NCBI RefSeq assembly: GCF_014203735.1
Contig: NZ_JACHJQ010000001.1
Span: forward strand, 124,001 to 188,000
Source: Actinophytocola algeriensis
GTDB taxonomy: Bacteria > Actinomycetota > Actinomycetes > Mycobacteriales > Pseudonocardiaceae
DNA: 64,000 nt
Direction of reading: 5' to 3'
Position 1 is the first letter of the stretch. The number at the start of each line of letters is the position of its first letter. The notes beneath the pieces were generated by a model. That model did no database searches, was not told where the DNA came from, and worked only from the letters and a program-made list of their open reading frames with translations. The position numbers were made by a program, and so were the translations under genes. Positions 28,247 to 48,416 of this stretch are shown here, piece by piece.

Positions 28247-28459
28247 ATGCCCTGGAAGACGCTTTCGGGGCGTTGAGCGTCCTGAAAGCGCCTTTCGAGA
28301 CGCCAACCGCCGCCCCACGGCCAGCTCAGAACCGAAACCGGCCGGAACGCAACCCCCACCCTGTCCCGGGGGCGTCCCGCCTTGCCAGTCTACCAGGTGG
28401 GGTGGATAAAGCAAAGGCGCGGGTGCCCAGCTGTGGATAACTCACCCTGCTGTGGACAA
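28247..28459 (-). repeat. Dispersed DnaA-box/hairpin element, copy 1
   Basis: Read on the minus strand: TTGTCCACA (28451-28459), TTATCCACA (28432-28440, 19 bp further), a degenerate third box (28401-28409), a hairpin core (about 28321-28400) identical to copies 2 and 3 apart from a base or two, then two GAAAG..CTTTC palindromes (28251-28302). The boxes start 2 bp after the stop of the minus-strand membrane-hydrolase gene. The whole convergent gap 28163-28461 holds little else and no gene. Confidence 0.88.
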
Positions 28460-28461
28460 CT

Positions 28462-30795
28462 TCACCGATCGCCCAGCGTGAAGAGCGCCTGCGGCTCCGC
28501 CGGATCCAGGCCCGCCGCCATGGCGACGGCGCGATCCCACTCCGGGTCGGCCGAATAGTTCCCATGCCGCTGCAAACCGGGCGTCCACCGCCGCCCCGGC
28601 AGCGGCCCGGGCTGCGGATCCGGCAGCCAGTGGTCGAGCCCCAGTACCAGCGCGCCATGCGGGCTCCGCGTCGCCGCCGCCAGTGGCCCCGGCGTCCCGT
28701 CGGCGCGGAAACCCATGCCCAGCAACGAATCCTCGAACACCTGCCGCCGCCACGTGGTCACCGCGCCGCCCAGCGCGTCCGTGCCCCGGCACAGCGACCG
28801 CCACCGGGTGCCCAGCTCACCGGCGAACGCGCCCATCGCCGAGAACGGCAGCACCGCCGGGAACGCCCGCGTGTACGCCCACTGCAGCTGCGACCCGACC
28901 GTCACGATCCCGATCCGCCGCCGCTCCGGCTCGTTCAGCGAGTTCAGCAGCCGCGCCACCGCGACCGTCGCCAGCAGGCTCCCGTGGCTCTCGCCGATCA
29001 CCACCACCCGCGTCCCCGGCTCCGCCAGGTGCGTCATCGCGCGCGCCGCCACCTCGGGCGCCACCTTCACCGCGTAGCACGGCGGCACGATCGGGTGCGC
29101 CTCCCTCGGCCAGAAACATGCCAGGTCCGCCAGCACGCCCAGCTGCCGCCCCGACTCCGGCGCCCGCGCCGCGTTGTACACCGCCCGCAGCAGCCCGCCC
29201 GCCAGCGCGCCCAGCGCGAGCACCCCGACGGCCGACAGCGGCATCAGCCAGTCCGGCGTGCCGACGAACCGCAGGTAGATCGCCACCGCCGCACCCGCCG
29301 ACAGCGCGCCGGAGCAGGTCAGCACGACGTGGTGCAGGTGCTGCCGGAACCATCCGGCTACTCGCCACTCCCGCGCCGGCGACCCCAGCAGCCGCGCCTC
29401 CGCCGAGTCGATCGACCGCAGCCTGACCAGCGCGAACGGGCCGGCCACGACCGCGACGACCGCACCGAGCACCGCGCCTGCGCCCCACAGCAACGTCACC
29501 GGCAGGTACCCGGGCGGCACCTGCATGCCCTCGGTCCCGAGCGGCTTGCGCACCGCGATGCCCAGCCCGGCGCCGAACCCGCCGCCGAGCAGCGCCGCCA
29601 CCGCGAGCACGGGCGCCGCCATCCAGCCACCCGCCCACGGCCGCAGCTCCCTGGGTCGCGACCGCCACTCCCGCCGCGCGATCCGCGCCGCGGGCACCAG
29701 CAGCACCGCGAACACCGCGACGACCACGATCAACGCGGCCGCGATCGCCTCCACCGTCTGCTCGGTGCCGGTCAGCCGCAGCGGGTCCAGGCTCACCCCG
29801 GCCGCGGCCACCAGCGCCACACCCACCAGGTACAGCGCCCGGCGGGTCCACGGCCCGAGCGCCCTGCGCAGCCACGCACCCGCGCGCCCTGGCACCGCAC
29901 CCCGCGGGTCGTCCAGCGCCAGGACCCCCGTGATCGCCACCGCCAGCAGGATCAACGCGAGCGTCCACAGCGCGGCGGGCAGCGGCTCGCCGGGCATGGC
30001 GAACGGGCCGCCGAGGGGGAGCAGGGCGACCGTCGCGAGCGCCGCCACCAGGTGCAGTGCACGCAGCGTCGGCGTGTCGGGGTCGGCGACCAGGTTCGTG
30101 CCCGGCAGGTGGACCCGTGCGTTCGGTGGCGTCGGCGGCGGGTTGCCCGGCGTGGCGCCCGCGTCCACCTCCCACGCGACGCACGAGATGCGGTGCAGCA
30201 CGTAGATCGTCAGGAGAACCGGTAGAAGACCGATGGTGGGCCGCACCAGGTATGTCTCCCGCAGCCAGTCCGGCACCGTGTCCGCGAGACACGGCGAACC
30301 GGGCGCGAGGCACTGTGCCGCGACCAGGTCGAGACTCACGACCGCGGCCTGCGTGACGAGCAGCACGGTGAGGAGTACCGCCGCGAGCCGCAGCAGCGTC
30401 CGGCACGCGACGCTCAGCCTGCGTGCCAGGCCGTGCCCGGCGGGGACCGGCGGCAGCATCCAGTGCGCGACGTTCGCGAGTGCGAACGGGAAAAGCACAG
30501 CCCAGGCGGCCTTTGCCCAGCCGCCGGAGGTCATCCCGCCCCACGAGTAACCCTCGACGACTCTCGGTATCGACTGCCCCTCGGCCCGCAACATCGGTCC
30601 CGGCGCGGGGCGCAGCAGCCGGTCGGCGGGCTGGACGATCCGCCCGAGACCGTCCCCGGCGACGTCGACGGCGGCGACCGCCGAGACCAGCGTCTCCGGC
30701 CTGGTGCCCATCACGCCGTGGACACGTAGTTCGACCACGCGGGTGTCCGGCCCAGGCGGGAACAACCGACCCCTCCTTCTCTGCTCGACGACCAC
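28462..30795 (-). CDS. Large membrane protein with lipase-like GxSxG site
   Basis: 777 residues, GTG start. An N-terminal soluble part (VVELRVHGVMGTRPETLV, like the first strand and oxyanion loop of an alpha/beta hydrolase) is followed by about ten membrane segments between residues 90 and 560. The C-terminal part has VVVIGESHGSLLATVAVARL, where GESHGS gives a GxSxG nucleophile elbow, and later DHWLPDPQPG. The hydrolase fold therefore seems to be split around an inserted membrane region. I know no characterised relative; a membrane-anchored lipase or esterase is the best guess. It is divergent from ahcY with a 65-bp gap. Confidence 0.7.
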   Translation of the reverse strand: MVVEQRRRGRLFPPGPDTRVVELRVHGVMGTRPETLVSAVAAVDVAGDGLGRIVQPADRLLRPAPGPMLRAEGQSIPRVVEGYSWGGMTSGGWAKAAWAVLFPFALANVAHWMLPPVPAGHGLARRLSVACRTLLRLAAVLLTVLLVTQAAVVSLDLVAAQCLAPGSPCLADTVPDWLRETYLVRPTIGLLPVLLTIYVLHRISCVAWEVDAGATPGNPPPTPPNARVHLPGTNLVADPDTPTLRALHLVAALATVALLPLGGPFAMPGEPLPAALWTLALILLAVAITGVLALDDPRGAVPGRAGAWLRRALGPWTRRALYLVGVALVAAAGVSLDPLRLTGTEQTVEAIAAALIVVVAVFAVLLVPAARIARREWRSRPRELRPWAGGWMAAPVLAVAALLGGGFGAGLGIAVRKPLGTEGMQVPPGYLPVTLLWGAGAVLGAVVAVVAGPFALVRLRSIDSAEARLLGSPAREWRVAGWFRQHLHHVVLTCSGALSAGAAVAIYLRFVGTPDWLMPLSAVGVLALGALAGGLLRAVYNAARAPESGRQLGVLADLACFWPREAHPIVPPCYAVKVAPEVAARAMTHLAEPGTRVVVIGESHGSLLATVAVARLLNSLNEPERRRIGIVTVGSQLQWAYTRAFPAVLPFSAMGAFAGELGTRWRSLCRGTDALGGAVTTWRRQVFEDSLLGMGFRADGTPGPLAAATRSPHGALVLGLDHWLPDPQPGPLPGRRWTPGLQRHGNYSADPEWDRAVAMAAGLDPAEPQALFTLGDR

Positions 30796-30860
30796 TCCAG
30801 TCGATCAACTGGTGGCAACGGTAGTGTTCTGGAGGCAATTGAGTCTGGAGGATGTACGGG

Positions 30861-32351
30861 ATGACCGCAGTAAACAGCCAGGACGAGACCGTTAGCCGAT
30901 ACCTGCGCACGGTTGGCAACCTGGACTTCGCGGTGGCAGATCTGTCGCTGGCCGAGTTCGGGCGCAAGGAGATTCGCCTCGCGGAGCACGAGATGCCGGG
31001 TCTGATGGCCTTCCGGCGTGAGTACGCCGAGGTCTACCCGCTTCGTGGTGCGCGGGTCTCCGGCTCATTGCACATGACCGTGCAGACCGCGGTGCTGATC
31101 GAGACGTTGGTCGAGTTGGGCGCCGAGGTGCGTTGGGCGTCCTGCAACATCTTCTCGACCCAGGACCACGCGGCGGCCGCGGTCGTCGTCGGTCCGCACG
31201 GAACGCCGGAGGAGCCCAAGGGCGTCCCGGTGTTCGCGTGGAAGGGCGAGACGCTCGACGAGTACTGGTGGTGCACCGAGAAGATGCTCACCTGGGCCGC
31301 CGGTGCGGCGCCGAACATGCTGCTGGACGACGGCGGCGACGCGACCCTGCTGGTGCACAAGGGCACCCAGTACGAGGCCGCGGGTGTCGTGCCTCAGCCG
31401 GACGACAACGACTCCGAGGAATGGAAGATCATCCTCGAGACGCTGCGTAACTCGCTCGCTGCCGACAAGCAGAAGTGGACGCGCACCGGCAAGGAGATCA
31501 TGGGCGTCACCGAGGAGACCACCACCGGTGTCCTGCGCCTGTACCAGCTGGCCGCCGCGGGTGAGCTCCTCTTCCCGGCGATCAACGTCAACGACTCGGT
31601 CACCAAGTCGAAGTTCGACAACCGCTACGGCATCCGCCACTCCCTGGTGGACGGCATCAACCGCGGCACCGATGTCCTCATCGGTGGCAAGGTCGCGGTC
31701 GTCTGCGGCTACGGCGACGTCGGCAAGGGTTCCGCGGAGTCGCTGCGTGGTCAGGGTGCCCGCGTCATCGTCACCGAGATCGACCCGATCTGCGCCCTGC
31801 AGGCCGCGATGGACGGGTACGACGTCCAGCGCCTCGAGGACGTGCTCAACAGGGCCGACATCATCATCACCACGACGGGTAACAAGGACGTCGTGATGGC
31901 CGAGCACATGGCGAAGATGAAGCACCAGGCGATCCTGGGCAACGTCGGCCACTTCGACAACGAGCTCGACATGGCGGGCCTCGCGCGCTACCCGGGTATC
32001 CGGCGGATCAACATCAAGCCGCAGGTCGACGAGTGGGTCTTCCCGGACGGGCACTCGATCATCGTGCTCTCCGAGGGCAGGCTCATGAACCTCGGCAACG
32101 CGACCGGCCACCCGTCGTTCGTGATGTCGAACTCGTTCTCCAACCAGGTGATCGCACAGATCGAGCTGTTCACCAAGAACGAGGAGTACGACAAGGAGGT
32201 GTACCGGCTGCCGAAGAAGCTCGACGAGAAGGTCGCCCGGATCCACCTCGAGGCTCTCGGCGGTCAGCTGACGAAGCTGTCCAAGGAGCAGGCCGAGTAC
32301 ATCGACGTCGACGTCGACGGCCCGTACAAGTCGGACCACTACCGGTACTGA
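30861..32351 (+). CDS. ahcY: S-adenosylhomocysteine hydrolase
   Basis: 496 residues. It splits S-adenosylhomocysteine to adenosine and homocysteine with tightly bound NAD. Seen here: [51 protein letters not shown] and the Rossmann loop [20 protein letters not shown], with LKYxHYRY-type end [11 protein letters not shown]. The long form with the extra segment of about 40 residues near residue 150 is usual for actinobacteria. ATG 30861 is chosen because GGAGG (30847-30851) is 9 nt upstream; the ATG at 30852 abuts the GGAGG. A strong terminator follows. Confidence 0.95.
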
Positions 32352-32360
32352 TCGTTCGCC

Positions 32361-32396
32361 AAAGGCCGGCTCCCGCTTCGGCGGGGGCCGGCCTTT
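32361..32396 (+). terminator. ahcY terminator
   Basis: AAAGGCCGGC (32361-32370) with CCCGC pairs with GCGGG and GCCGGCCTTT (to 32396) around a TTCG tetraloop. It is a very stable stem with an A-run before and a T-run after, so it can work on both strands. Confidence 0.85.
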
Positions 32397-32464
32397 GTGG
32401 CCTCCGGCCCCCGGATTCCAGCGTACGGGGTGGGGGCGACGGTTCTCGGCTCGTTATGGCGTGC

Positions 32465-32582
32465 TGTGGACAACCGGCGGTGCTGTGGACAAGTCGTGGT
32501 CCGCGCCGCGTTGTCGTCGGTGGCCCGGACTACGCTGGATTCCGGGGGGCCGACGGCCACCGTTGATCTTGCCTGTGGACAA
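32465..32582 (-). promoter_or_regulatory. Three DnaA-box-like 9-mers in a convergent gap
   Basis: TGTGGACAA (TTGTCCACA on the minus strand) occurs at 32465-32473, 32484-32492 and 32574-32582. The first two are 19 bp apart, the same spacing as in the three dispersed elements, but the hairpin core is absent. A direct repeat of the type GCTGGAT..GGGGGCCGACGGCC is present near 32534-32561 and 32614-32637. The gap 32352-32711 holds no gene. The first 30 bp after the terminator resemble 48166-48195. Confidence 0.6.
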
Positions 32583-32711
32583 CCGCGGCTGGTTGTCGGT
32601 GCCGGCGGCCAGGCTGGATGTCGGGGGCCGACGGCCTTCGAGGGGTCTCACCGCGTTCGCGCGGAGCGCGGGGCGTCTGTGCGTGCGCTTCGGTCCGCCA
32701 TCGTCGCGGGG

Positions 32712-33281
32712 CTAGTGCAGTGTCTCGCCGCGTTCCAGCATGCCCACGAACTTCTCGATTCTCCGCGCGCGGGTTTCCGGGCGTTTCGCCTCCTCCACCC
32801 GGTAGAGAATGGCGTAGCGGTTCTGGCTCGTCAGCGTCGTGAAGAACTCCGCCGCCTTCGGGGACGCCGCCAGCGCCGCCGCCAGGTCCGCGGGCACCGT
32901 CGAGCTTGCCGGGCCCGCGTACGCGGCCTCCCAGCGGCCGTCCGCCTCCGCCGCCTCCACTTCGCGCAGGCCGCGGGGGAACATGCGGCCCTCCGCGATC
33001 AGGCGTTCCGCCGACGCCCGGTTGATCTTCGACCAGCGGGAGCGGCGGGTGCGTGGCGTGAACTTCTGCGCGAACCACTGGTCGTCGACGCGGCGGGCGG
33101 TGCCGTCGATCCAGCCGTGGCGCAGGGCCTCCTCCAGTGCCTGGTCGTGGTCGACCGACTCGAGGCCGGTGCCCTTCTTCGCTATGCGCAGCCACACGCC
33201 CTGGGTCTCCGCGTGGTCCGCCAGCCACGCCGCGAACTCCGCCTGACCGGCGAAGGTCAGCTCGGGCAACTCACTGGGCAT
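32712..33281 (-). CDS. YdeI/OmpD-associated family protein
   Basis: 189 residues, cytosolic. LTFAGQAEFAAWLADHAETQ, GVWLRIAKKGTG, DQALEEALRHGWIDGTARRV and FTPRTRRSRWSKINRASAERL are the conserved blocks of the YdeI-like family, followed by the C-terminal FFTTLTSQNRYAILYRVEEA helical part. The family is widespread and loosely linked to tolerance of peptides and stress; no biochemical activity is established. The ATG overlaps the end of the upstream META lipoprotein gene by 11 nt, so the two form a minus-strand operon that ends in the box-rich convergent gap. Confidence 0.85.
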   Translation of the reverse strand: MPSELPELTFAGQAEFAAWLADHAETQGVWLRIAKKGTGLESVDHDQALEEALRHGWIDGTARRVDDQWFAQKFTPRTRRSRWSKINRASAERLIAEGRMFPRGLREVEAAEADGRWEAAYAGPASSTVPADLAAALAASPKAAEFFTTLTSQNRYAILYRVEEAKRPETRARRIEKFVGMLERGETLH

Positions 33282-34056
33282 GCAATCCGATCCCCTTGCC
33301 GGACGGGTGCGTGAACGTCAGCCGGTCGGCGGTCAGCTCGTACGTCACCTCGTCCCGCAGTGCGTCCGCTACCGCCTTCTCGCCCTGCATGATCTCAGGT
33401 GCGCACGCCATCAGCGTGGACATGCCCGGCGTGAAAGTGACTGTGTCGCCCGCGATCACGTACTCGGCCGTGTAGCCGTTGCAGTGGGTCTCCGCCACGA
33501 CCTTCGTGCCGTCGAACACCAGCGTCACCTCCGGGGCACCAGCGGGCATGCTCGACGCGGTCTGGCCGTCGACCAGCGTGTCCAGCACCCACGTGGTGCC
33601 CTTCAGGTCGCGTGTGGTCTCGGCCTCGGCCGCCATGTCGAACACCGTAGTTCCCGTGCGGATCGTCAGGCGGCCGTCGGTCAGCTCCCACTTCGGGTTC
33701 GCCGACAGCACGCCCGCGACGAACTCGTCCTGGTCGTGGCGAGCTGTGTCGCAGCCCATCTCCGTCATCGACAGGCCGCCGTCGACGGTCAGCGTGCCGT
33801 CCGCCGTGTCGACCTGGCCCTGCATGATGTTGCAGCCCGCCCGCGCGATCAGCCTGCCGTCGTCGGTGAACTCGACCGACAGTTCGGTCTCCGGCGCCAG
33901 CTGCCTCGGCTCGCCGGACTCGGTCACCGCCATGGCGAGAAACGTCTTGCCGCGCAACGGATCCGGCTGCTGCTGCCCAGCCGGTTCTTCCTGGGCGGCG
34001 CCTCGCGCGCCGCACCCCGCGAGGACCAGCAACATCAGCACCGCGACGATTCTCAT
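33271..34056 (-). CDS. Secreted lipoprotein with two META (HslJ-like) domains
   Basis: 261 residues. MRIVAVLMLLVLAGC is a lipoprotein signal peptide with lipobox LAGC, so the protein is anchored on the outside of the membrane. Two META domains follow: residues about 35-145 (KTFLAMAV..AGCNIMQGQV..MTEMGCD) and about 150-255 (GTTWVLDTLVDG..HCNGYTAEY..STLMACAPEIMQGE). Each has the typical C-N and M-x-C pattern. META domains occur in heat- and antibiotic-stress proteins such as HslJ; the role here is unknown. Operon with the YdeI-like gene downstream; divergent from the DUF1266 gene. Confidence 0.88.
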   Translation of the reverse strand: MRIVAVLMLLVLAGCGARGAAQEEPAGQQQPDPLRGKTFLAMAVTESGEPRQLAPETELSVEFTDDGRLIARAGCNIMQGQVDTADGTLTVDGGLSMTEMGCDTARHDQDEFVAGVLSANPKWELTDGRLTIRTGTTVFDMAAEAETTRDLKGTTWVLDTLVDGQTASSMPAGAPEVTLVFDGTKVVAETHCNGYTAEYVIAGDTVTFTPGMSTLMACAPEIMQGEKAVADALRDEVTYELTADRLTFTHPSGKGIGLHAQ

Positions 34057-34112
34057 ACCTCCAGGACGGAGTCGGCCACCTGTCGCGTTGCACGTCGCTA
34101 CACTCCGGCCGC

Positions 34113-34865
34113 GTGGTGGTCTGTGATCACGTGGAGGGGATGGTCAGCGCCCCACAGGGACCGTTCTACGGACCGCTGGCCCACGGCTACGCCTGCGGCG
34201 CCCACATTCCCGTGCACGTCTCGAGCCCGTGGAACGCGCTGGACGACCCCGTCCGCGACTACGCCGCGAACCGCGAGTCGCTCGCCGACAACTGGGGCGT
34301 GACGACGGCGGAGGACTGGTCCCGCCAGGTCGACTACCTGCTCGGCGGCATGAACATCGGACCTGAGGTGGACGCCGTGCTGAACGTGCGGCGCACGCTG
34401 CTGCGCCAGCAGGGCCACTACGACCTGTTCACCTGGCAGAACGCCGTCGGCGAGTGGGCCAGGCGACAGCGGAAGGAACCCGCCGAGGTCGAGGAGATGG
34501 TCCACCTCGCAGGCGTGGTCACCCGCTACGAGTCGCGGTTCCGCACCGACGGTCTTCTGCCGCACCACGGCCTCGTCACCAGCCTCTTCGGCTACGACTT
34601 CGGTCGCGCCGTCAACATGGCCCGGTGGGGTTTCGGCGGCCGTTTCTGCGACTACCGGACCGCTGAGCGGATCGTGCTGCGTGCCGGGGAGCTGTGCCGC
34701 CAGCACTACACGTCGTGGGCCGATTTCAGCGCGGGCTACGCGCTCGGCCGGGTGATCCGGTTCGACAAGGAGGAGTACGGACACATGTACGTCTCCGTGC
34801 TCGGCCCGCACCGGCTGCTGATGACCGACCGGACCAGCCCGTGGTGGCACGTGCCGTTCGCATAG
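34113..34865 (+). CDS. DUF1266 domain protein
   Basis: 250 residues. ESLADNWGVTTAEDWSRQVD then YLL is the hallmark start of the DUF1266 domain, and FGYDFGRAVNMARWGFGGRF and YTSWADFSAGYALGRVIRF continue it. No signal peptide or membrane segment. Function unknown; some family members sit next to contact-dependent or phage-related systems, but nothing of that kind adjoins here. GTG 34113 is preceded at 8 nt by TACACT (34099-34104), consistent with a leaderless mRNA; an internal ATG at 34140 is possible. It is followed 10 nt later by tmk. Confidence 0.8.
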   Translation: MVVCDHVEGMVSAPQGPFYGPLAHGYACGAHIPVHVSSPWNALDDPVRDYAANRESLADNWGVTTAEDWSRQVDYLLGGMNIGPEVDAVLNVRRTLLRQQGHYDLFTWQNAVGEWARRQRKEPAEVEEMVHLAGVVTRYESRFRTDGLLPHHGLVTSLFGYDFGRAVNMARWGFGGRFCDYRTAERIVLRAGELCRQHYTSWADFSAGYALGRVIRFDKEEYGHMYVSVLGPHRLLMTDRTSPWWHVPFA

Positions 34866-34875
34866 GGTGCCCCGC

Positions 34876-35508
34876 GTGGGACGACTGATCGTGATCGAGG
34901 GCATCGACGGCGCGGGCAAGCGCACCCTCGCCGACGCCCTGGACCGTGCGCTCGCCGGGAAGGTCGCGCGGCTCGCGTTCCCGCGCTACGGCGTGGACGT
35001 GCACGCGGACCTGATCCGCGACGGCCTGCACGGGCGGCTGGGCCCGTTCGGTGACGAGGTGTACGGCATGGCGATGCTGTACGCGCTCGACCGCAGGGCC
35101 GCCGCCGCCGACCTGCGCGCCGCGCTCGACGCGCACGAGTACGTCCTGCTGGACCGGTACGTGGCGTCCAACGCGGCGTTCGGCTCGGCCCGCCTGCACC
35201 AGGACGCCCGAGGTGAGTTCGTGCGCTGGGTCCACGCGATCGAGATCGAACGGTTCGGGCTGCCGCTGCCGCACGCCCACCTGCTGCTGCGGGTCGCCCC
35301 GTCGGTGGCGGCGGAACGTTCGACGCGCCGCGCGCTGACCGACGCCGAGCGCGGCCGCGACACCTGGGAGTCCGACGACGCACTGCAGGCCCGGGTGGCA
35401 GCGGTGTACGACGGGCTGGCCACCGACAGCTGGCTGGCCCCCTGGCACGTCGTGGACGGCACGACAACCCCCGACGCGGACGAGCTGGCCAAGAGACTCG
35501 CCGAGTAG
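34876..35508 (+). CDS. tmk: dTMP kinase
   Basis: 210 residues. It phosphorylates dTMP to dTDP for DNA synthesis. LIVIEGIDGAGKRTLADAL carries the P-loop (8-17 from this start), LAFPRYG binds the nucleotide and YVLLDRYVASNAAFGSARL is the DRY motif with the substrate loop. It fits the mycobacterial Tmk type. GTG 34876 is chosen because TAGGGT (34863-34868) precedes it by 7 nt without a Shine-Dalgarno (leaderless); GTG 34867 would add three residues. The stop codon touches the first DnaA-box-like 9-mer of element copy 2. Confidence 0.92.
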   Translation: MGRLIVIEGIDGAGKRTLADALDRALAGKVARLAFPRYGVDVHADLIRDGLHGRLGPFGDEVYGMAMLYALDRRAAAADLRAALDAHEYVLLDRYVASNAAFGSARLHQDARGEFVRWVHAIEIERFGLPLPHAHLLLRVAPSVAAERSTRRALTDAERGRDTWESDDALQARVAAVYDGLATDSWLAPWHVVDGTTTPDADELAKRLAE

Positions 35509-35709
35509 TTGTCCACAGCAGGGTGAGTTATCCACAGCTGGACCAACGTGCCTTTGCTTTGTCCACCCCACCTGATAGACTGGCAAGGCGGGACGCCCCC
35601 GGGACAGGGTGGGGGTTGCGTTCCGGCCGGTTTCGGTTCTGAGCTGGTGGCGGTTGGCGTCTCGAAAGGCGCTTTCAGGACACTCAACGCCCGGAAGCGT
35701 CTTTCAGGG
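35509..35709 (+). repeat. Dispersed DnaA-box/hairpin element, copy 2
   Basis: TTGTCCACA (35509-35517) and TTATCCACA (35528-35536) are 19 bp apart, followed by a third box TTGTCCACC (35559-35567). The core is 35561-35646. Its hairpin pairs GGGACGC (35590-35596) and CCCC with GGGG and GCGTTCC (35618-35624). A promoter-like TTGCTT-16-TAGACT precedes it. Then come two GAAAG..CTTTC palindromes (about 35660-35709). It begins directly after the tmk stop, between convergent genes. The rest of the gap to 35830 holds one more weak palindrome and no gene. Confidence 0.9.
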
Positions 35710-35830
35710 CGTCGCGGCGGCGCGAAGGCACCTTTGAGGCCTCGCCGTTCGGGGGCCGCGACCGGCTCCGGTCAGGAACCATCGGCTTTACCGATTGCGG
35801 TCCGGCCGGGTTTGCCGGGGTGGTCGTTGC

Positions 35831-36310
35831 TTACGGTGCGCCGACCAGGTCCGCGCCCCAGTGGGCTATCTCCGCGTTGATGTCCAGGCGGGCGATGGTC
35901 GGGTTCGCCGCCATTTCCGCTGTCACCCGGTCGCGGGGGACGAACCACGAGATCTCGAACTCGATGCCGTCGGGGTCCTTGGCGTACAGGGACTTCGAGA
36001 CCGCGTGGTCCGACGAGCCGACCAGGGCGCCCACCTTCGTGAGCTTCTCTTCGAAGGCCGCCAGTTCCGGCAACGTGTTGACCGACCACGCCAGGTGGTA
36101 CAGGCCGACGCCGCTGCCCGGTTTGGTCCCGTTGCCGCGGACGCCGAAAAGGCCGAGGTCGTGGTCGTTGTCGGAGTCGGCGGCGCGCAGGAAGGCCGCG
36201 GCCGGCCTGCGGTGGACCACCGTGAAACCGAGGATGTCCGTGTAGAACGTGACGCTGCGGTCCACGTCGCGCACGTACAGCACGGCGTGGTTCAGCCTGC
36301 GGATGCCCAT
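35831..36310 (-). CDS. VOC-family (glyoxalase/dioxygenase-fold) protein
   Basis: 159 residues from ATG 36310, with GGAGG 12 nt upstream (an earlier in-frame start at 36343 exists). Two beta-alpha-beta-beta-beta modules are visible: RRLNHAVLYVRDVDRSVTFY with DILGFTVV, and GLYHLAWSVNTLPELAAFE with YAKDPDGIEFEISWFV. The metal positions H (LNHAVL), H (YHLAW) and E (GIEFEI) are present, so it should bind a divalent metal, as in glyoxalase I and extradiol dioxygenases. Substrate unknown. It converges on tmk and is divergent from mtrA. Confidence 0.85.
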   Translation of the reverse strand: MGIRRLNHAVLYVRDVDRSVTFYTDILGFTVVHRRPAAAFLRAADSDNDHDLGLFGVRGNGTKPGSGVGLYHLAWSVNTLPELAAFEEKLTKVGALVGSSDHAVSKSLYAKDPDGIEFEISWFVPRDRVTAEMAANPTIARLDINAEIAHWGADLVGAP

Positions 36311-36465
36311 AGCGGCCGCGCACCTCCGTGCGTCCCTGTTCAACCTTCAACAGATAGATTGCCGGTACACCCTGAAGCGTTACAACCGATCACCCGGAGT
36401 GCGGAAACCGGATGAACCGACCGGGTCTCGCGCGAATGAGCTTCACGAAGTGCGACGATGTAACC

Positions 36466-37143: not shown

Positions 37144-37156
37144 TCGGACGGTCTCG

Positions 37157-38899: not shown

Positions 38900-40647
38900 G
38901 ACGGCGCCTCTCGGTCACGCTGCTCGCGATCGCGGTGCTGGTGCTCGCCGGCTGCGCCAACATCCCGGAGGAGTCGACACCGCACGCGGTCCGCGACGAG
39001 CAGCAGATCGTGCCGGAGGCCGCCGAACGGCCACCGACGCCGAACCTCAACGCGTTCGACCTCGTGCGCGAGTTCGTCAAGCGCTCGGGCAACCCCGAGG
39101 CCGCCTCGATGTACCTGACGGACAAGGCCAAGGAGCAGTGGCCGGCCGACAGCAAGCCGTACGTCATCCACGACACGTTCAGCACCGTGCCCATGTCCAA
39201 CGACGACCAGAAGCAGTCCGGTGAGGACCAGGGCGGCGTCGAGTCGGGACGTGTCGTCGTGGTGCTGCGCGTGACGCAGATCGGCACGCTCGGCCAGGAC
39301 AACGCGTTCATCCCGCGGATCGGCAACCCCGAGTTCCGGGTCGGTGTGGTGCGCGAGAACGGCCAGTGGCGCATCGACGCGCCGCCAGAGCACGTGTACG
39401 TGCCGTACTCGTACTTCAAGACCAGCTACCGCGCCGTCACCGTGTACTACTTCGACCCGGACCTGCGCATCACCGTCCCCGACCAGCGCTACGTGCCCGC
39501 GGCGCCCGCCGCAGGGCTGCCTGCCCGCGTGATCAAGGTCCTGCTGTCCGGCCCGTCCGACTCGATCCGCCGGTCGGTGGTGTCCCCGCTCGAGGGCGTC
39601 GGTGCCCGCACCAACGTGGTGCCCGACGCCGACGGCACGCTCGTCGTCGACCTCAATCCGCTCGGCGACAAGAGCGAGGAGCAACGCGAGAAGATCGCTG
39701 CCCAGATCGTCCTGTCGCTGCAGACCGTCACGTCCAGCCGCCTCCGCATCAAGGGCGACAACGTGGACCTGATCCAGGGCCACGGCGACTGGCGCCTGTC
39801 CGACATCAAGCAGTACGACACCGCCACCAAGCCCGGCCCCGACCAGCAGGGCCTGCTCGTGTCCGGTGGCAGGCTCCGCATGCTCCAGGACGGCAAGGCG
39901 GCCCCCGGCCCCGCCGGTGAGGGTGCGTACGACGTCGTCAGCGCCGCCCAGTCCATCGACGGTGAGCAGCTCGCGGTCGTCACCCAGGTCGACGGCAGGC
40001 TGCGCCTGCGCGTCGGCCGCTACGGCGAGGCACTGCAGGAGGTCGCGCTGGACGCCACGACCATGTCGAGACCGACCTGGCGGGTGTCCACCGGCGACGA
40101 CCAGGACGCCGGCGAGGTGTGGACCGTCGAGGACGGCAACGTCGTCCGCGTCGTCCGGGCGGGCGACGAGACGTGGCGGTCGGTCGAGGTCAACGCGTCG
40201 GCGCTGAACGAGAACTTCGGCTCGATCACCGAGCTTCGCCTGTCCCGCGACGGCACGAGGGCCGCGATCGTCACCAGCAGGGGCTGGGTCGTCCTCGCCG
40301 CCGTGGTGCGCGACAAGGACTCGGTCAGCCTCGCACTGCCCCGCACGCTGTCCCCGACCATGATCGTCAACGCCGTCGGCGTCGACTGGCTGAACCAGCA
40401 CACCCTCGTGGTCGCCACCCGGCAACCGCAGATGCCGGTGATCAACCTGTCGCTGGACGGCCTCACGATCGACCACTACGACCCGAACAACCTCCAGTTA
40501 CCGGTCCGCGCGATCACCGCCGCTCCCGACCGCGAGGTCGTCGTCACGGACAGCGCCGCTGTCTCGGTCGTGTCCGGCCTCGGCCAGGTGTGGCACCGTC
40601 TGCAGAACGGCCAGGGCCCGAGCTCGATCCCGTTCTACCCGGGCTGA
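38896..40647 (+). CDS. lpqB: Lipoprotein LpqB (MtrB-interacting)
   Basis: 583 residues. LLAIAVLVLAGCANIPEES is a lipoprotein signal with lipobox LAGC. A GerMN domain (about 180-330, with AGLPARVIKVLLSGPSDSI) is followed by a beta-propeller-like C-terminal half (SRDGTRAAIVTSRGWVVLAA and similar repeats). In mycobacteria LpqB binds the extracellular part of MtrB and changes its signalling. The ATG overlaps the mtrB stop, the usual coupled arrangement. The following 150 bp (40648-40797) hold no gene or clear hairpin. Confidence 0.93.
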   Translation: MRRRLSVTLLAIAVLVLAGCANIPEESTPHAVRDEQQIVPEAAERPPTPNLNAFDLVREFVKRSGNPEAASMYLTDKAKEQWPADSKPYVIHDTFSTVPMSNDDQKQSGEDQGGVESGRVVVVLRVTQIGTLGQDNAFIPRIGNPEFRVGVVRENGQWRIDAPPEHVYVPYSYFKTSYRAVTVYYFDPDLRITVPDQRYVPAAPAAGLPARVIKVLLSGPSDSIRRSVVSPLEGVGARTNVVPDADGTLVVDLNPLGDKSEEQREKIAAQIVLSLQTVTSSRLRIKGDNVDLIQGHGDWRLSDIKQYDTATKPGPDQQGLLVSGGRLRMLQDGKAAPGPAGEGAYDVVSAAQSIDGEQLAVVTQVDGRLRLRVGRYGEALQEVALDATTMSRPTWRVSTGDDQDAGEVWTVEDGNVVRVVRAGDETWRSVEVNASALNENFGSITELRLSRDGTRAAIVTSRGWVVLAAVVRDKDSVSLALPRTLSPTMIVNAVGVDWLNQHTLVVATRQPQMPVINLSLDGLTIDHYDPNNLQLPVRAITAAPDREVVVTDSAAVSVVSGLGQVWHRLQNGQGPSSIPFYPG

Positions 40648-40797
40648 CGGCTGTCCATCGGCTCCCTCCTTTCGTGGATGGGCAAGGGTTCTGGTGGTGT
40701 CGGGTTGGTCGAGGGACGTGTCAGGTGGCGCCTGGGGCGACCGGCCGGTTGCCCACGTAGTCGGCGCTGGCTTCGCCTCGACAGGCTCAGCGAGCCC

Positions 40798-41415
40798 TCA
40801 CGTGGCCGTGAACGCCAGTACCGTCACCTCCTCCGTTCCGCCGTGGCGCAGCGCCGCCACGCAGGCGGCGGCTGTCGCGCCGGTTGTGATCACGTCGTCG
40901 ATCAGGACAGCGGACCGGGGCGCCCGCCCCGCGCACCGCAGCCGGCCGCTCAGGTTCGCCACCCGGGCGTCCTGGTCGAGGCCCACCGAGTCCCGTGCCC
41001 GGCCGGACAGGCGCAGCACCGGCGACACCGATGCCCGGTGTCCCGCGTGGACCAACGCGGTGGCACAGGCGCGGGCCACCGCCGTCATGTGCTGGCCGTA
41101 CCGGGCGCGGGCCGCGGACGGCCGGGACGGTGCGGGCACCACGACATATGGCCCTGCCCGGATCGTCGGCAGTGCGTGTGCGAACGCCCGTCCCAACGGC
41201 ACGGACAGCTCGTGCCGCCCCTTCTCCTTGTACGCCAGCACAAGCCTGCGCGGGGCGCCCTCGTAGCCCGCGAGGGCGTACGCGGCCGCGCCGAGGTCGG
41301 GCCGGGGCACCGGGCGCACCTTCAGCGCGCCCGCGCACTCGGCGCACCAGGCGGTCGCGGGGGCGTCGCAGCCCGCGCAGCGGTTGGGCAGGACCAGATC
41401 CAGAATCGAACGCAT
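40798..41415 (-). CDS. ComF-family phosphoribosyltransferase-like protein
   Basis: 205 residues from ATG 41415; an ATG at 41424 would add MST. The N-terminal zinc ribbon is CAGC (with CAEC 14 residues later). The phosphoribosyltransferase domain has VVVPAPSRPSAARARYGQ, LSGRARDSVGLDQDARVANL and the PRPP loop AVLIDDVITTGATAAACVAA. In naturally competent bacteria ComF helps DNA uptake; in actinobacteria the conserved copy beside hpf (Rv3242c) has no proven role. It is encoded against the flanking lpqB and hpf genes. Confidence 0.87.
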   Translation of the reverse strand: MRSILDLVLPNRCAGCDAPATAWCAECAGALKVRPVPRPDLGAAAYALAGYEGAPRRLVLAYKEKGRHELSVPLGRAFAHALPTIRAGPYVVVPAPSRPSAARARYGQHMTAVARACATALVHAGHRASVSPVLRLSGRARDSVGLDQDARVANLSGRLRCAGRAPRSAVLIDDVITTGATAAACVAALRHGGTEEVTVLAFTAT

Positions 41416-41733
41416 GGTCGACATGATGCACCACGACACCGACAAAAGCCCAAGTCCCGGAAGGAGGAACCTTCGTCGCTGGGAGTTGCGTCAGAACGTG
41501 TGTTTCAAGGACTGGGAGACGGCGCATACCTCCTTCTGAGTGAACTTGTTCGGGGAACCTTGATCACTCGAAGACCGTTGAAGGGTTATGGAAGGCGCGA
41601 TCAGTCGATCATCGCGGAAGGCAGCCGTGCCTGGTCCGGCTGGCCGAGCGCCACGCGCGCGGCCGGCGGGCGGGCCCTCGTGCGCGAAGGGGGGCCACGT
41701 TGCGCTCAGTCACCCGGGCGGGACGTACAAGTT

Positions 41734-41752
41734 CCCCCGCCGAGGGGGCTTT
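41734..41752 (+). terminator. Hairpin plus T-run in the hpf leader (terminator or attenuator)
   Basis: CCCCC (41734-41738) pairs with GGGGG (41744-41748) around GCCGA and is followed by CTTTTG, an intrinsic-terminator form. It sits in the middle of the 499-bp gap 41446-41944, about 190 bp before hpf. It may end an upstream transcript or act as an attenuator. The rest of the gap holds only the short frame at 41825. Confidence 0.5.
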
Positions 41753-41824
41753 TGCAAAGGCACAACGCGAGATAACGTCTCGGCATCAGCTTTCCCGGTT
41801 TTCGCAGGGAGGAGGCGAGTAGCC

Positions 41825-41851
41825 ATGACCCTGGCGCCGGTGGGGCCCTGA
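41825..41851 (+). CDS. Possible 8-residue leader peptide upstream of hpf
   Basis: ATG at 41825 reads MTLAPVGP and then TGA. It has one of the best ribosome-binding sites in the window, AGGGAGGAGG (41806-41815), 9 nt before the start. A terminator-like hairpin lies upstream and a GAGG..CCTC inverted repeat (about 41850-41869) right after the stop. The Pro-stop ending is a context known to slow translation termination. The frame is too short for statistics; it could be a regulatory uORF for hpf or chance. Confidence 0.35.
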   Translation: MTLAPVGP

Positions 41852-41944
41852 GGTAGGGGAGCCCCTCAAGCCCCCTGGAGAGTCCAGATTTTCCCGGCGC
41901 CGCCGTTAGTTCACTATCTCGCTGACAGGCGAGGGAGGTTGTGT

Positions 41945-42610
41945 ATGGACATCGTCGTTAAAGGCCGCAACGTCGAGGTGCCCGATCACTACCGAGTGCA
42001 CGTCGAGGAAAAGCTCACCAGGCTCGAACGCTATGACCGCAAGGTAATCCGGTTCGACGTGGAGCTGTTCCACGAGCCCAACCGCAGGCAGTCGAAGAAC
42101 TGCCAGCGCGTCGAGATCACCGGCAAGGGCAGGGGCCCCGCCGTACGCGCTGAAGCGTGTGCAGGCGACTTCTACGCCGCGCTCGACGCCGCCGTCACAA
42201 AACTCGAGAACCGCCTCCGCAGGCTGCACGACCGCAGGCGCGTGCACTACGGACGCAGGGGCCAGACCTCCGTCGCGGAGGCCACCGCGCACGCCTCCAC
42301 CGAGCTTTCCGCGCTGCCCGCCACGAACGGTCGCGCGCAGACCGCGGTGCTGCCCGCGAGAACCGAGCAGGCCGTAGGCCTTCCCGAGGTGCCGTCCCAG
42401 CGCTGGGAAAGCGCTGAGGAGGACAACCTTCCTGGCAAGATCGTCCGGGAGAAGGAGCACCCGGCCAAGCCGATGACCGTCGACCAGGCTCTCTACCAGA
42501 TGGAGCTGGTCGGACACGACTTCTTCCTCTTCCATGACGCCGATGCCGACAAGCCGAGCGTCGTCTACCGCAGGAGGGGCTTCGACTACGGCGTGATCAG
42601 GCTGGTCTGA
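41945..42610 (+). CDS. hpf: Long ribosome hibernation promoting factor
   Basis: 221 residues. The N-terminal S30AE domain (about 1-100: DIVVKGRNVEVPDHYRVHVE, AGDFYAALDAAVTKLENRLR) sits in the mRNA/tRNA channel of the 30S subunit. The C-terminal domain (about 165-221: REKEHPAKPMTVDQALYQME and LVGHDFFLFHDADADKPSVV) dimerises to form 100S ribosomes. A flexible linker joins them. This is the long form expected in actinobacteria. ATG 41945 is 6 nt after GGGAGG. The leader is unusually long and structured. Confidence 0.94.
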   Translation: MDIVVKGRNVEVPDHYRVHVEEKLTRLERYDRKVIRFDVELFHEPNRRQSKNCQRVEITGKGRGPAVRAEACAGDFYAALDAAVTKLENRLRRLHDRRRVHYGRRGQTSVAEATAHASTELSALPATNGRAQTAVLPARTEQAVGLPEVPSQRWESAEEDNLPGKIVREKEHPAKPMTVDQALYQMELVGHDFFLFHDADADKPSVVYRRRGFDYGVIRLV

Positions 42611-42623
42611 CACGAAACGCGAC

Positions 42624-42652
42624 AAGCCCCTGGGAGACAGCCCGGGGGCTTT
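42624..42652 (+). terminator. hpf terminator
   Basis: AAGCCCC (from 42624) and GGGGCTT (ending 42651) form the stem, with inner GG/CC pairs and a short loop, followed by TCG. It lies 14 bp after the hpf stop. Confidence 0.8.
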
Positions 42653-42707
42653 CGCATGTGCGCGGCCGGTGCACGCGTTGTGCCCGGTGCCGGTACGGTG
42701 CGGGCCC

Positions 42708-43172
42708 ATGCGCACTGCCAAGATCATCGCTGTTCTGTTCGCCGCCACCGCCGCGCTGGGGGTCAGTGCCTGTGGCAGCGACGAGCCGCAGGACTCCGGA
42801 CAAGCACAGCAGGAGACCGCGGCACAGGACGCCGAGGAGAAGGACACCGCGGAGAAGGACGCCGAGACCAAGGCGAAGTCAGCCGACGAGCTGGCCAAGG
42901 ACGTCGAGATCGTGACGTGCGAGAGCGGCACCGGTGCCGGCGTGAGCGCGACCGTCGAGGTCACGAACTCGCTGGACGAGCCCATGGAGTACATCGGCAC
43001 CATCAACTTCCTGGACGCCGCGGGAACCCTGCTCACCGAGGGCTACTTCAACACCGGCACCCTCGAGCCCGGCGCCAAGTCGACCGAGGAGGTACCCGGG
43101 GCCAACGTCTACGAAGTGGTCCAGGGTGCGACCTGTGAGCTGGTCGAGGTGAAGATCGACGAACCGGTCTAG
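42708..43172 (+). CDS. Small secreted lipoprotein
   Basis: 154 residues. MRTAKIIAVLFAATAALGVS followed by ACGSDEP is a lipoprotein signal with the lipobox Cys. A low-complexity Ala/Glu/Lys/Asp-rich linker (about 25-65) leads to a small beta-rich domain (EIVTCESGTGAGVSATVEVT, DEPMEYIGTINFLDAAG) with two Cys that could form a disulfide. It resembles FxLYD-like extracytoplasmic domains. Role unknown. ATG 42708 is 8 nt after TACGGT (42694-42699) without a Shine-Dalgarno, suggesting a leaderless mRNA. It lies between hpf and secA. Confidence 0.82.
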   Translation: MRTAKIIAVLFAATAALGVSACGSDEPQDSGQAQQETAAQDAEEKDTAEKDAETKAKSADELAKDVEIVTCESGTGAGVSATVEVTNSLDEPMEYIGTINFLDAAGTLLTEGYFNTGTLEPGAKSTEEVPGANVYEVVQGATCELVEVKIDEPV

Positions 43173-43270
43173 GCAGCCCGGTTCGAGGACGGCCTACGAT
43201 GGGGGCAGGGTGAGGCAGCTCTCTCCCTGTCATAGGCGCGCACACGATCCAGCTAGCGAGGTTGAACCTG

Positions 43271-46174
<2,904 letters not shown>

Positions 46175-46190
46175 TTTGCCCGGGCTGGCC

Positions 46191-46248
46191 ATGCCCTGAA
46201 AGACGCTTTTCGGGACGTTGAGTGTCCTGAAAGCGTCTTTCGAGGCAT
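46191..46248. terminator. Bidirectional hairpin between secA and DUF6912
   Basis: A long inverted repeat: the left arm 46191-46216 pairs with the right arm 46224-46248 around a 7-nt loop GTTGAGT, with only a few mismatches. Each arm also carries its own small GAAAG..CTTTC palindrome. It is the stand-alone form of the tail of the dispersed elements at 28.2 and 35.5 kb. The position just after secA and between convergent genes suggests termination on both strands. Confidence 0.75.
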
Positions 46249-46270
46249 CAGCCTTCGGTCGGGGGCTGGG

Positions 46271-46777
46271 TCAGAGCAGTTCCAGCAGGAACGGCAGCTC
46301 TTCCGGGGAGTACCACGCCAGTTCGTGGTCCTCGGCCTCGCCGAGGGTGAACTCCGCGTCGCCGTCGCCCAGGTCTGCCTGGTCGATCACCGCGGCCGCG
46401 GCACGGACGGCTGGTTCGGCGTCCGAGGTGTCCAGGTGTACCGCCGCGACCTGCTTCAGCTGCACCGGCCCGGACAGGCGCACCACCGAGTAGTCCAGGT
46501 CGGGTCGGAGGGTGGCGCCGTCGACGTCCGCCGAGACCACGGCGCGCCTCGGCAACACCAGTTCCGGATCCTCTTCGAGCTCGGCCGCCAGCAGGCGCAG
46601 GGACGCGCGGGACGCCTCCAGCATGGCCGCGTACTCCAGCTCCTCGGACGACCCCGATGCGTAGGACTCCCGCAGCATCGGGGTCAGCGCGAACGCCGTG
46701 CCGCTCACCGCGGACAGCTCGCCTGCGGCGTTCAGCGTCCGCAGCATCAACACCGTTGCCGGTATGTAGACCCTCAC
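46271..46777 (-). CDS. DUF6912 family protein
   Basis: 168 residues from GTG 46777. VRVYIPATVLMLRTLNAAGE at the start, AFALTPMLRESYASGSSEEL and ADVDGATLRPDLDYSVVRLS are the conserved actinobacterial blocks. No signal peptide or membrane helix, rich in Leu/Ala/Glu, probably cytosolic. Function unknown. It is divergent from the TrmH gene by about 70 bp and converges on secA, whose end is shielded by the hairpin at 46191-46248. Confidence 0.75.
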   Translation of the reverse strand: MRVYIPATVLMLRTLNAAGELSAVSGTAFALTPMLRESYASGSSEELEYAAMLEASRASLRLLAAELEEDPELVLPRRAVVSADVDGATLRPDLDYSVVRLSGPVQLKQVAAVHLDTSDAEPAVRAAAAVIDQADLGDGDAEFTLGEAEDHELAWYSPEELPFLLELL

Positions 46778-46848
46778 CGTGCTCCCGTTCCCTCTGCGGC
46801 GGGCAAGGCCTAGATCCTGGCACACCGGCGACGTGCGATGCTCTCGCC

Positions 46849-47598
46849 GTGGACGGCCAATCACCCAAGGACCGGTTCGTGACCGTGTTCGGTCGCAAGC
46901 CCGTACTGGAGGCGCTCGCCGATCGGCGGCTCGACGTGGACAAGGTCATTCTCGCCGACAACGCCCGCGGCGGCGCCGCCAAGGAGATCATCGACGCCGC
47001 TGGCGCGCGTTCCGTGCGGGTCGAGCGGGCCAGTGCGCACCGCGTGAAGGTGCTGGCGGGTAACGGGAAGCAGGACCAGGGGGTGCTCGCCGACGTCGTC
47101 GCGCCGCGGATGCGGCGGCTGGTCGACGGGCTCGCCGCGCGGCCCGCGACCGTGCTCGTGCTCGACGGGATCACCACCCCGGCCAACGTCGGGATGATCC
47201 TGCGGACCGCCACCGCCGCCGGGATCGAAGGGATCGTCGTGCCCCGGCGTGGCGTGGCGGGCATCGACCCGCTGGTCGTGAAGGCCTCCGCCGGAGTCGC
47301 GTTCCACGCGCCGGTGCTGCGCTGCTACACGGCCGAGGAGGCGTGCGCCGCGCTCCGCGACGCCGGTTACCCGCTGTACGCGCTGGACGGTGCCGCCCGC
47401 CAGTCGTTGTTCGACGCCACGCTGCCGCGCCGGGCCGCCTATGTGCTCGGCGGGGAGACGGCCGGGGTGAGTCCCGAGGTCCGCAAGCACGTCACGGGCC
47501 TGGCCTCGATCCCGATGGCGGGCGGGGTCGAGTCGCTGAACGTCGCCAGTGCGGCTGCCGTGCTGTGCTTCGAGCTGGTTCGTCGGCACGGTCAGTAA
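46849..47598 (+). CDS. TrmH/SpoU-family RNA 2'-O-methyltransferase
   Basis: 249 residues from GTG 46849. The SPOUT trefoil-knot domain shows LVLDGITTPANVGMILRTAT and AAGIEGIVVP (motif 1), YVLGGETAGVSPEV (motif 2) and IPMAGGVESLNVASAAAVLC (motif 3, AdoMet binding). An N-terminal RNA-recognition part (FGRKPVLEALADRRLDVDKV) is present. It should 2'-O-methylate a ribose in rRNA or tRNA; similar enzymes in actinomycetes give thiostrepton-type resistance, but that is not implied here. Monocistronic. Confidence 0.88.
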   Translation: MDGQSPKDRFVTVFGRKPVLEALADRRLDVDKVILADNARGGAAKEIIDAAGARSVRVERASAHRVKVLAGNGKQDQGVLADVVAPRMRRLVDGLAARPATVLVLDGITTPANVGMILRTATAAGIEGIVVPRRGVAGIDPLVVKASAGVAFHAPVLRCYTAEEACAALRDAGYPLYALDGAARQSLFDATLPRRAAYVLGGETAGVSPEVRKHVTGLASIPMAGGVESLNVASAAAVLCFELVRRHGQ

Positions 47599-47658
47599 CC
47601 GGACCATCCCATGGGGTGGTCTTTGTCCGGAATGGACGGTCCCTCAGCTCAGTAGGGC

Positions 47659-48156
47659 ATGACCGTTCCAGCTCTACCTGACGAGCCGTGCCATCTCCAG
47701 TTCCGGCGGCTGCCGGACTACGAACCGGACTGCGATCCGGACGGGATCGGGCCACCCATGCGGTGGTCGAGCCTGCGTCCCGCGACCGGCCCGCAGCTGC
47801 GCCTGGTGCCGCCCGCGCCGGAGCCTGACGGACCGCCCGTGGCTCCTGCCGCGTTGGCGCAGGTGCTGCGGCGGGTGCTGGAGGTGCTGGACGGGCGGCG
47901 GCCGGTGAACCAACTGCGGACGTTGTTGCCGGATGTGGCGTTCGAGGCGCTGCTCACGAGGTTGCGGACCGTGCGGCCGGGGGGTCGGCACGTGCTGCGG
48001 AAGCTGCGGACGTGTTACCCGACGAGGTCCGCGGTCGAGGTGAGCGCGGTGATCGGGATCAGCTCGCCCGCCGGGCGGGAGCGGGTGGTGGCGGCCGCGG
48101 CACGGTTCGAGCGCCACGGCGACCGGTGGCTGTGCGCGGTGCTGCGCATTCTGTGA
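47659..48156 (+). CDS. Rv3235-family protein
   Basis: 165 residues. The N-terminal half is Pro-rich and low-complexity. The C-terminal part (about 70-165: LRRVLEVLDGRRPVNQLRTL, GGRHVLRKLRTCYPTRSAVE, then ARFERHGDRWLCAVLRIL) is the conserved Rv3235-like domain of actinobacteria, which keeps its place near secA. Function unknown; cytosolic. A strong terminator and the third dispersed element follow. Confidence 0.82.
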   Translation: MTVPALPDEPCHLQFRRLPDYEPDCDPDGIGPPMRWSSLRPATGPQLRLVPPAPEPDGPPVAPAALAQVLRRVLEVLDGRRPVNQLRTLLPDVAFEALLTRLRTVRPGGRHVLRKLRTCYPTRSAVEVSAVIGISSPAGRERVVAAAARFERHGDRWLCAVLRIL

Positions 48157-48206
48157 CGGGTTTGGCCTCCGGCCCCCGGTTTCCACGCTACGGCGCACCA
48201 CCGACC

Positions 48207-48241
48207 AAACCGCCCGCCGCGCACCTGCCGGCGGGCGGTTT
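48207..48241 (+). terminator. Terminator after the Rv3235-like gene
   Basis: AAACCGCCCGCCG (48207-48219) and CGGCGGGCGGTTT (48229-48241) form a perfect 13-bp stem with a 9-nt loop, an A-run before and a T-run after. The last T bases are also the first bases of a DnaA-box-like 9-mer. Confidence 0.85.
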
Positions 48242-48416
48242 GTCCACAGGTCGATGAGTTGTCCACAGTTGGGCCGGCGCGCCTTGCTTTATCCACCCCA
48301 CCTGGTAGACTGGCAAGGCGGGACGCCCCCGGGACAGGGTGGGGGTTGCGTTCCGGCCGGTTTCGGTTCTGAGCTGGCCGTGGGGTGGCGGTCGGCGTCT
48401 CGGAAGGCGCTTTCGG
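48240..48416 (+). repeat. Dispersed DnaA-box/hairpin element, copy 3
   Basis: TTGTCCACA occurs at 48240-48248 and 48259-48267 (19 bp apart), with a third box TTATCCACC at 48289-48297. The core with the hairpin (48320-48354) is identical to copies 1 and 2. Promoter-like TTGCTT (48284-48289) and TAGACT (48306-48311) precede it. Only the first GAAGG..CTTTC palindrome remains (to about 48416); the second is missing where the convergent oxidoreductase gene ends. The gap 48157-48427 holds no gene. Confidence 0.9.

Follow-up and report, generated by a model that had tools for sequence, protein, structure and literature searches.

Promoter elements held in common by unlinked competence genes are familiar from the ComK boxes of Bacillus and the ComE/Cin boxes of Streptococcus, and short non-coding copies dispersed between genes are familiar as repeats of the REP/MITE type. 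The element considered here, from Actinophytocola algeriensis (family Pseudonocardiaceae; hereafter the host), has something of both. It was noticed as three copies in a stretch of 64,000 nucleotides (the window: positions 124,001 to 188,000 of contig NZ_JACHJQ010000001.1, i.e., C1:124001-188000 of a host genome of 9.73 Mb in 23 contigs), each with a pair of boxes of the form TTRTCCACA. The box and the phylum differ from those of the ComK and ComE/Cin systems, the host box being equal to the DnaA box, and unlike REP/MITE repeats the host modules carry a phased regulatory switch that is also used by coding operons.

Non-coding clusters of DnaA boxes are themselves known. The Escherichia coli loci datA, DARS1 and DARS2, in the sections of PMC4585315 that treat them, are single loci of 3-6 boxes which keep a conserved position relative to the replication origin, oriC; datA and DARS2 have IHF sites, and DARS2 also a Fis site. 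The host has instead about 100 sites of two boxes each, associated with promoter-like sites and with coding operons. In Micrococcus luteus, another high-GC Gram-positive, the same uptake machinery is present (comEA-comEC, tad), and both tad clusters and comEC are required for transformation (PMC4322843, relevant section). The sections on the com system in PMC4322843, PMC8467076 and PMC12849477 name no cis element, and the main text of the latter two does not mention DnaA; the abstract of PMC12849477 (2026) describes competence control in Actinomycetota as little known and what lies upstream in M. luteus, whether signal or cascade, as still to be identified. In mycobacteria PafBC acts through the RecA-NDp promoter, and the part of PMC6789036 dealing with it leaves undescribed the upstream tandem DnaA-type boxes, divergent pairing and ~100 copies that are features of the host.

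What, then, would the host element do? The reading that we consider probable, going by the layout of the sequence and the genes it accompanies, is a competence and recombination regulon under DnaA-box control, together with tens of non-coding modules on the same switch. Two tandem TTRTCCACA boxes with a 19 bp period would be bound by a regulator, most likely DnaA, acting from upstream (the end of box 2 lies ~39 nt before a -10 of the form TANNNT) on a single promoter or on a divergent pair that shares one face of the helix, and presumably activating rather than repressing. The ancestral role, in several genera of the family, would be control of comEA-comEC, the Tad pilus, yraN-comM-dprA, ssb, recA, a SAF/CpaB-like gene, an M23 peptidase and DUF4192, whose mRNAs would probably often be leaderless. 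In the host the switch would have been copied into tens of intergenic sites, there driving short non-coding leaders, class A being a G/C-run hairpin leader and class B having a RecA-NDp-type promoter that would often fire outward against convergent genes.

The pattern TTRTCCACA-N10-TTRTCCACA is present 102 times in the host genome and its backwards-read form not once. Contig C3 (1.14 Mb; the numbering of contigs, genomes and loci is our own) has 95 boxes; a direct spacing of 19 bp is seen 29 times among them, and no other distance of 120 bp or less is seen more than twice. Nearly all listed modules have two boxes, and one array has four. BLAST of one copy against the host genome gave at least 41 matches (191 candidates, 40 scored), and the aligned copies read GTTRTCCACA(G/A)-N7-(A/G)GTTRTCCACA, followed after ~38 variable bases by TG(G/A)TAGACTGGCAAGGCGGGACGCCCCCGGGACAGGGTGGGGG with minor variation. 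The other five genomes of the genus have 9-25 pairs each, and G006, of another genus, has 101, with class A-like leaders, often as tandem doublets, in 28 of the 30 loci read. An exact scan for the leader core in the named genomes gave matches only in Actinophytocola oryzae, gossypii and xanthii (12 stretches). Outside the family the strict pair is nearly absent: 5 of 295 other genomes of the class have 1-2 matches, all in the same order, and one of those five is of the same family.

The surroundings of the boxes are as regular as the boxes. Alignment on the boxes of 98 unique modules (the 100 listed of the 102 pairs, three overlapping C14 matches being counted once) has information on both flanks. 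With class patterns that tolerate mismatches, a class A leader is found to the right in 46, one of class B (TANNNTGG-N5-GGGGGCCGGAGGCC or a close variant) in 36, a bare RecA-NDp motif in one and none of these in 15; on the left, facing the other way, class B is found in 43 and the bare motif in three. A TANNNT resembling a -10, plus a conserved leader, stands on the right in 82 of the 98 and divergently in 43. The distance from boxes to -10 is, on the right, 38/39 for class A and 39/40 or 50 for class B, and on the left 27, 38 or 48/49 in 42 of 43, the other being at 35; these classes of distance are about one helical turn apart. We take TGTCGGTG-N8-TANNNT (TGTCRGTG-N8-TANNNT) to be the RecA-NDp damage-promoter motif of mycobacterial RecA-NDp/PafBC promoters, shared by host class B; the host recA promoter also fits it. 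With GG added (TGTCGGTGN8TANNNTGG) it occurs 99 times in the host genome against one for the control, and a looser GTC(A/G)GNN-N8-TANNNT is present in 28 of 36 right class B, 37 of 43 left class B and 9 of 46 class A. The element, on this layout, looks like a promoter module rather than passive boxes, and it may respond to DNA damage. pafA scored above cut-off in 11 of 12 genomes; at the 11 loci viewed no pafBC was recognised by eye within 1.5 kb of it, the rest of the genomes not being searched. Class A RNA, if made, may be a very short terminated transcript. A long fold of the leader does not improve on shuffled sequence (z -0.98); a G/C hairpin is possible for the short leader, whose G and C runs hardly vary. 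From ~1567 on in L179 (G011) a class A-like leader ends in a hairpin and seven T, resembling an intrinsic terminator.

Thirteen host pairs have neither a class A nor a class B leader on either side. Among the 12 read, seven precede comEA-comEC, the first gene of the Tad locus, yraN, recA, a SAF (CpaB-like) gene, a DUF4192 gene and an M23 peptidase gene adjoining rpsB. Pfam supported ComEA-type HHH/SLBB, Competence (ComEC), RecA, SAF, DUF4192, M23 and UPF0102 (YraN); at the Tad locus the second called gene matches T2SSE, and the first has only a sub-threshold BcsQ match. (Genes were called with an in-house codon-usage script which missed some; SAF in L281, for example, was located by frame.) Six of the seven pairs in the complete genome G017 mark tad, SAF, ssb, comEA-comEC, M23 (beside rpsB) and yraN-comM-dprA, and five of the 14 in G018 are at tad, SAF, M23, yraN-comM-dprA and a small gene without a name; elsewhere pairs are at recA in G015, SAF in G016, M23 in G014 and DUF4192 in G011. 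One cis element precedes several unlinked uptake and recombination operons. In a sample of 26 pairs at 24 loci, chosen by gene type, NANNNT is 38-41 past the boxes in 24, and a start codon lies 50-54 nt past box 2 in 18. This places the start codon ~7 nt past the -10, as expected of leaderless mRNA. For 40 pairs unselected by function (of 48 in the genomes of six other genera), YANNNT is at 37-41 in 25, against a random 4.4%, and a start codon at 49-55 in 13. A separate matter is the state of host comM, which is in two parts, C7:428543-429160 (L275) and C7:502257-503183 (L272), ~73 kb apart and with matched parts overlapping by 14 residues, as though split by integration of a large element; the gene is intact in A. 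oryzae, G017 and G018.

How general is the arrangement at a single gene? Host ComEA protein has a match in 59 of 60 family genomes, and the upstream sequence was read at the best 30 of the 59, host included. A -10 is recognisable at 24 of these 30 loci and boxes are present at 23 of the 24. Each of the 43 boxes at the 23 loci has its end either 38-41 or 56-59 nt ahead of the -10; of 6000 random stretches of 120 bp drawn from these loci, 134 contain a box. As the box period at comEA is 17-19 bp, the strict 19-bp scan undercounts. The element is kept across species at orthologous genes, both at comEA and at sites common to the host and A. oryzae.

The 9-mer is identical to the actinobacterial DnaA box, including the G/A choice at base 3, and the claim in the preliminary description that these are DnaA-type boxes is supported at the level of sequence. 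In the host oriC gap there are 5 boxes of no more than one mismatch, against 0.15 expected, and these share the module flanks, (A/G)G before in 5/5 and G or A after in 4/5, flanks that carry ~1 bit each across the 98 modules. The DNA-binding domain of host DnaA (domain IV) is close to PDB 3pvp (E 1.7e-41). The box consensus, the oriC boxes with their flanks and the 3pvp-like domain make DnaA the first candidate, and the most likely binder of the pairs. Might a different competence regulator bind them, with the likeness to DnaA boxes convergent? We regard this as rather unlikely: a regulon devoted to DNA uptake, and tandem direct repeats of fixed period suitable for a dimeric activator, would accord with it, whereas the nine-base identity including A/G at base 3, the recurrence of module flanks at oriC, and C at base 1 in 5 of the 7 single-mismatch comEA boxes do not, that C fitting the Streptomyces DnaA-box consensus. 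Just as doubtful, and at the opposite pole, is a bold extension of the DnaA-controlled regulon, with Pseudonocardiaceae DnaA itself as the competence activator: replication state, via the tandem boxes, and DNA damage, via RecA-NDp, would switch on DNA uptake, and the G-run-containing class A modules would be transcription-opened sites or RNAs acting in, or riding on, recombination in competent cells.

Several observations weigh against a DnaA-controlled competence regulon. Another protein could share DnaA-box specificity. Five of the 12 leader-less host loci precede genes without a clear competence link (an AAA ATPase, DUF218 beside another gene, and others), and 9 of the 14 pairs in G018 stand before no competence-type gene; eight of these nine are without a start codon at the expected place and none has YANNNT at 37-41. 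The G018 comEA (1366356) has no 19-bp pair, its upstream sequence not having been read. Six of the 30 comEA loci, left out of the 24, have no recognisable -10; one of the six, L314, has a pair with one mismatch. Of class A modules 37 of 46 are without the RecA-NDp motif, and neither class has a known product. The nine G018 pairs are at 5572, 296745, 551562, 551750, 1224329, 1301506, 3512082, 4169162 and 4450530; several lie just past stop codons in convergent gaps.

In the window, the three copies are where the preliminary description had placed them, at 28247-28459 (minus), 35509-35709 (plus) and 48240-48416 (plus). They start 2, 0 and 83 bp past a stop codon of the same direction, in keeping with its 0-85 bp; the gene preceding the third is of 98 codons and scores weakly in the gene calls. 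A 30-letter core pattern has 3 exact matches (zero mismatches) in the window and 0 in shuffles, and the TTRTCCACA 9-mer occurs 9 times against 0.14 expected. A fourth pair at 32465-32492 (minus), with different leaders, and a lone box at 32574-32582, in a convergent gap, are additions to that description, as is a divergent promoter-like site at 48185-48205 (minus) that uses the boxes of the third copy. The features, read from the sequence, are as follows.

28432..28459, minus: tandem box pair TTGTCCACA / TTATCCACA, 19 bp apart, module 1
28387..28392, minus: -10-like TAGACT, 39 nt past box 2, module 1
28353..28373, minus: class A leader core GCCCCC-GGGACA-GGGTGGGGG, module 1
32465..32492, minus: fourth tandem pair TTGTCCACA / TTGTCCACA, common to two putative divergent class B promoters, module 2
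32420..32425, minus: -10-like TACGCT, followed by TGGAATCCGGGGGCCGGAGGCC, the class B leader, module 2
32516..32536, plus: putative divergent class B promoter GTCGGTG-N8-TACGCT (RecA-NDp-like), 38 nt from the boxes, module 2
32574..32582, minus: lone box TTGTCCACA
35509..35536, plus: tandem box pair TTGTCCACA / TTATCCACA, module 3
35559..35567, plus: degenerate third box TTGTCCACC at the -35 position, in the window copies, unconserved in the family
35576..35581, plus: -10-like TAGACT, 39 nt past box 2, module 3
35595..35615, plus: class A leader core, module 3
48240..48267, plus: tandem box pair TTGTCCACA / TTGTCCACA, module 4
48306..48311, plus: -10-like TAGACT, 38 nt past box 2, module 4
48325..48345, plus: class A leader core, module 4
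48185..48205, minus: putative divergent class B promoter GTCGGTG-N8-TAGCGT, 49 nt from the boxes, on the module 4 pair

The observation of the three copies is thereby confirmed; the third box and the GAAAG..CTTTC tail drop out as general features of the family. Columns from the second box to the -10, the place of the third box included, carry 0.04-0.49 bits over the 98 modules, and the tail is in 5 of 30 copies, one of the five poor. GAAAG..CTTTC palindromes after some copies (window ~28270-28310 and 35660-35710) look like a separate repeat. Rfam has no match in the window at gathering score, a single mir-769 match being at chance level (E = 1), and a known RNA family for the element was rejected on that ground. 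A simple sigma-70 scan of 35450-35850 found no promoter.

All three copies are in convergent gaps, as first described; the accompanying 'always' becomes a strong bias. On C3 7 of 16 gaps with class A (p 0.009) and 12 of 17 with class B (p 1e-6) are convergent, against 67 of 409 for all gaps of at least 100 bp, each gap being counted once, with exclusion of one boxless class A match (845804), one in a gap already counted and five class B matches in called coding sequence. Scatter without convergent preference, which had been named as the contrary outcome, is not what is seen, the preference being real and incomplete. Among the 22 class B leaders in C3 convergent gaps are 8 whose end is no more than 10 bases from the opposing gene. 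There is also a bias towards the origin. All 14 pairs of complete G018 (dnaA at 1310) are within 1.40 of 2.42 Mb of it and all 7 of G017 (dnaA at 751) within 1.58 of 4.11 Mb; in the host, 29 of the 100 listed pairs fall on C3, the contig with dnaA, and none on C2 (1.32 Mb).

Position of this sort, the exact DnaA-box consensus and the ~200 boxes present in pairs are what would be looked for if the pairs were titration or reset sites in the manner of datA and DARS, as the preliminary description had proposed, holding DnaA from oriC or altering its nucleotide state, with the promoters incidental. We find this improbable as the main function, because the boxes are phased to promoter-like sites, at fixed distances from the -10, and because the same layout precedes protein-coding operons for uptake and recombination, orthologous across genera; the five other genomes of the genus, moreover, have only their 9-25 pairs. 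Titration is possible as a side effect. Under the favoured reading the regulon may still respond to replication.

That the element has spread by copying, another early proposal, gains support from the 102 pairs with none in the control, and from two class A sites in A. gossypii that are empty in the host. Are classes A and B then selfish, MITE-like mobile DNA, with a promoter that would fire in competent cells and without host function? This has some plausibility, more than the other alternatives, and we hold it only tentatively. The high identity between copies, the range of 9-102 pairs within the genus, the filled and empty sites and the tandem doublets of G006 would all be in character, while several class A/B sites are common to different species and the architecture is kept between genera; no terminal inverted repeats or clear target duplication were noticed at the two empty sites, inverted repeats not having been searched systematically. 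At the two sites as viewed, one has an 8-bp repeat by eye, and the boundaries are unclear. For 16 of the 27 A. oryzae pairs the compared host sequence includes the genes on both sides, and a host pair is present at all 16, counts biased in that most host loci were chosen for carrying pairs and only C3 is complete; 10 of these 16 are leader-less in A. oryzae. In L107 of A. gossypii (2230-2400) a class A module lies at the start of a gene and the reading frame stays open through it; the host homologue of that gene overlaps the preceding gene by 4 bp.

Genes of the DUF222/HNH (13E12) type use RecA-NDp promoters, and the only DUF222 gene found in the host (L031, C2:540923-541783) has two upstream RecA-NDp motifs with class B-like leaders, from which the modules might be thought relics of such elements. 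We consider this very improbable and rejected it, a single DUF222 gene having been found in 9.7 Mb; class A is unlike, and the 8 of 22 convergent class B leaders on C3 ending at most 10 bases from an opposing gene leave no room for a lost one.

Literature searches on the box, and on DnaA with competence, found no account of the element among the papers listed, and one for natural competence in Pseudonocardiaceae found nothing. A short exact cis element at comEA-comEC, Tad, yraN-comM-dprA, ssb and recA in several genera is both bait for a regulator and a list of members. The many non-coding modules, with promoters seemingly of the same type planted between genes, are a second puzzle. Should DnaA prove to be the binder, competence would be coupled directly to the initiator of replication, a link that to our knowledge is undescribed and of which the search showed no report among the papers listed. 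The element may be how these bacteria control DNA uptake, i.e., natural transformation.

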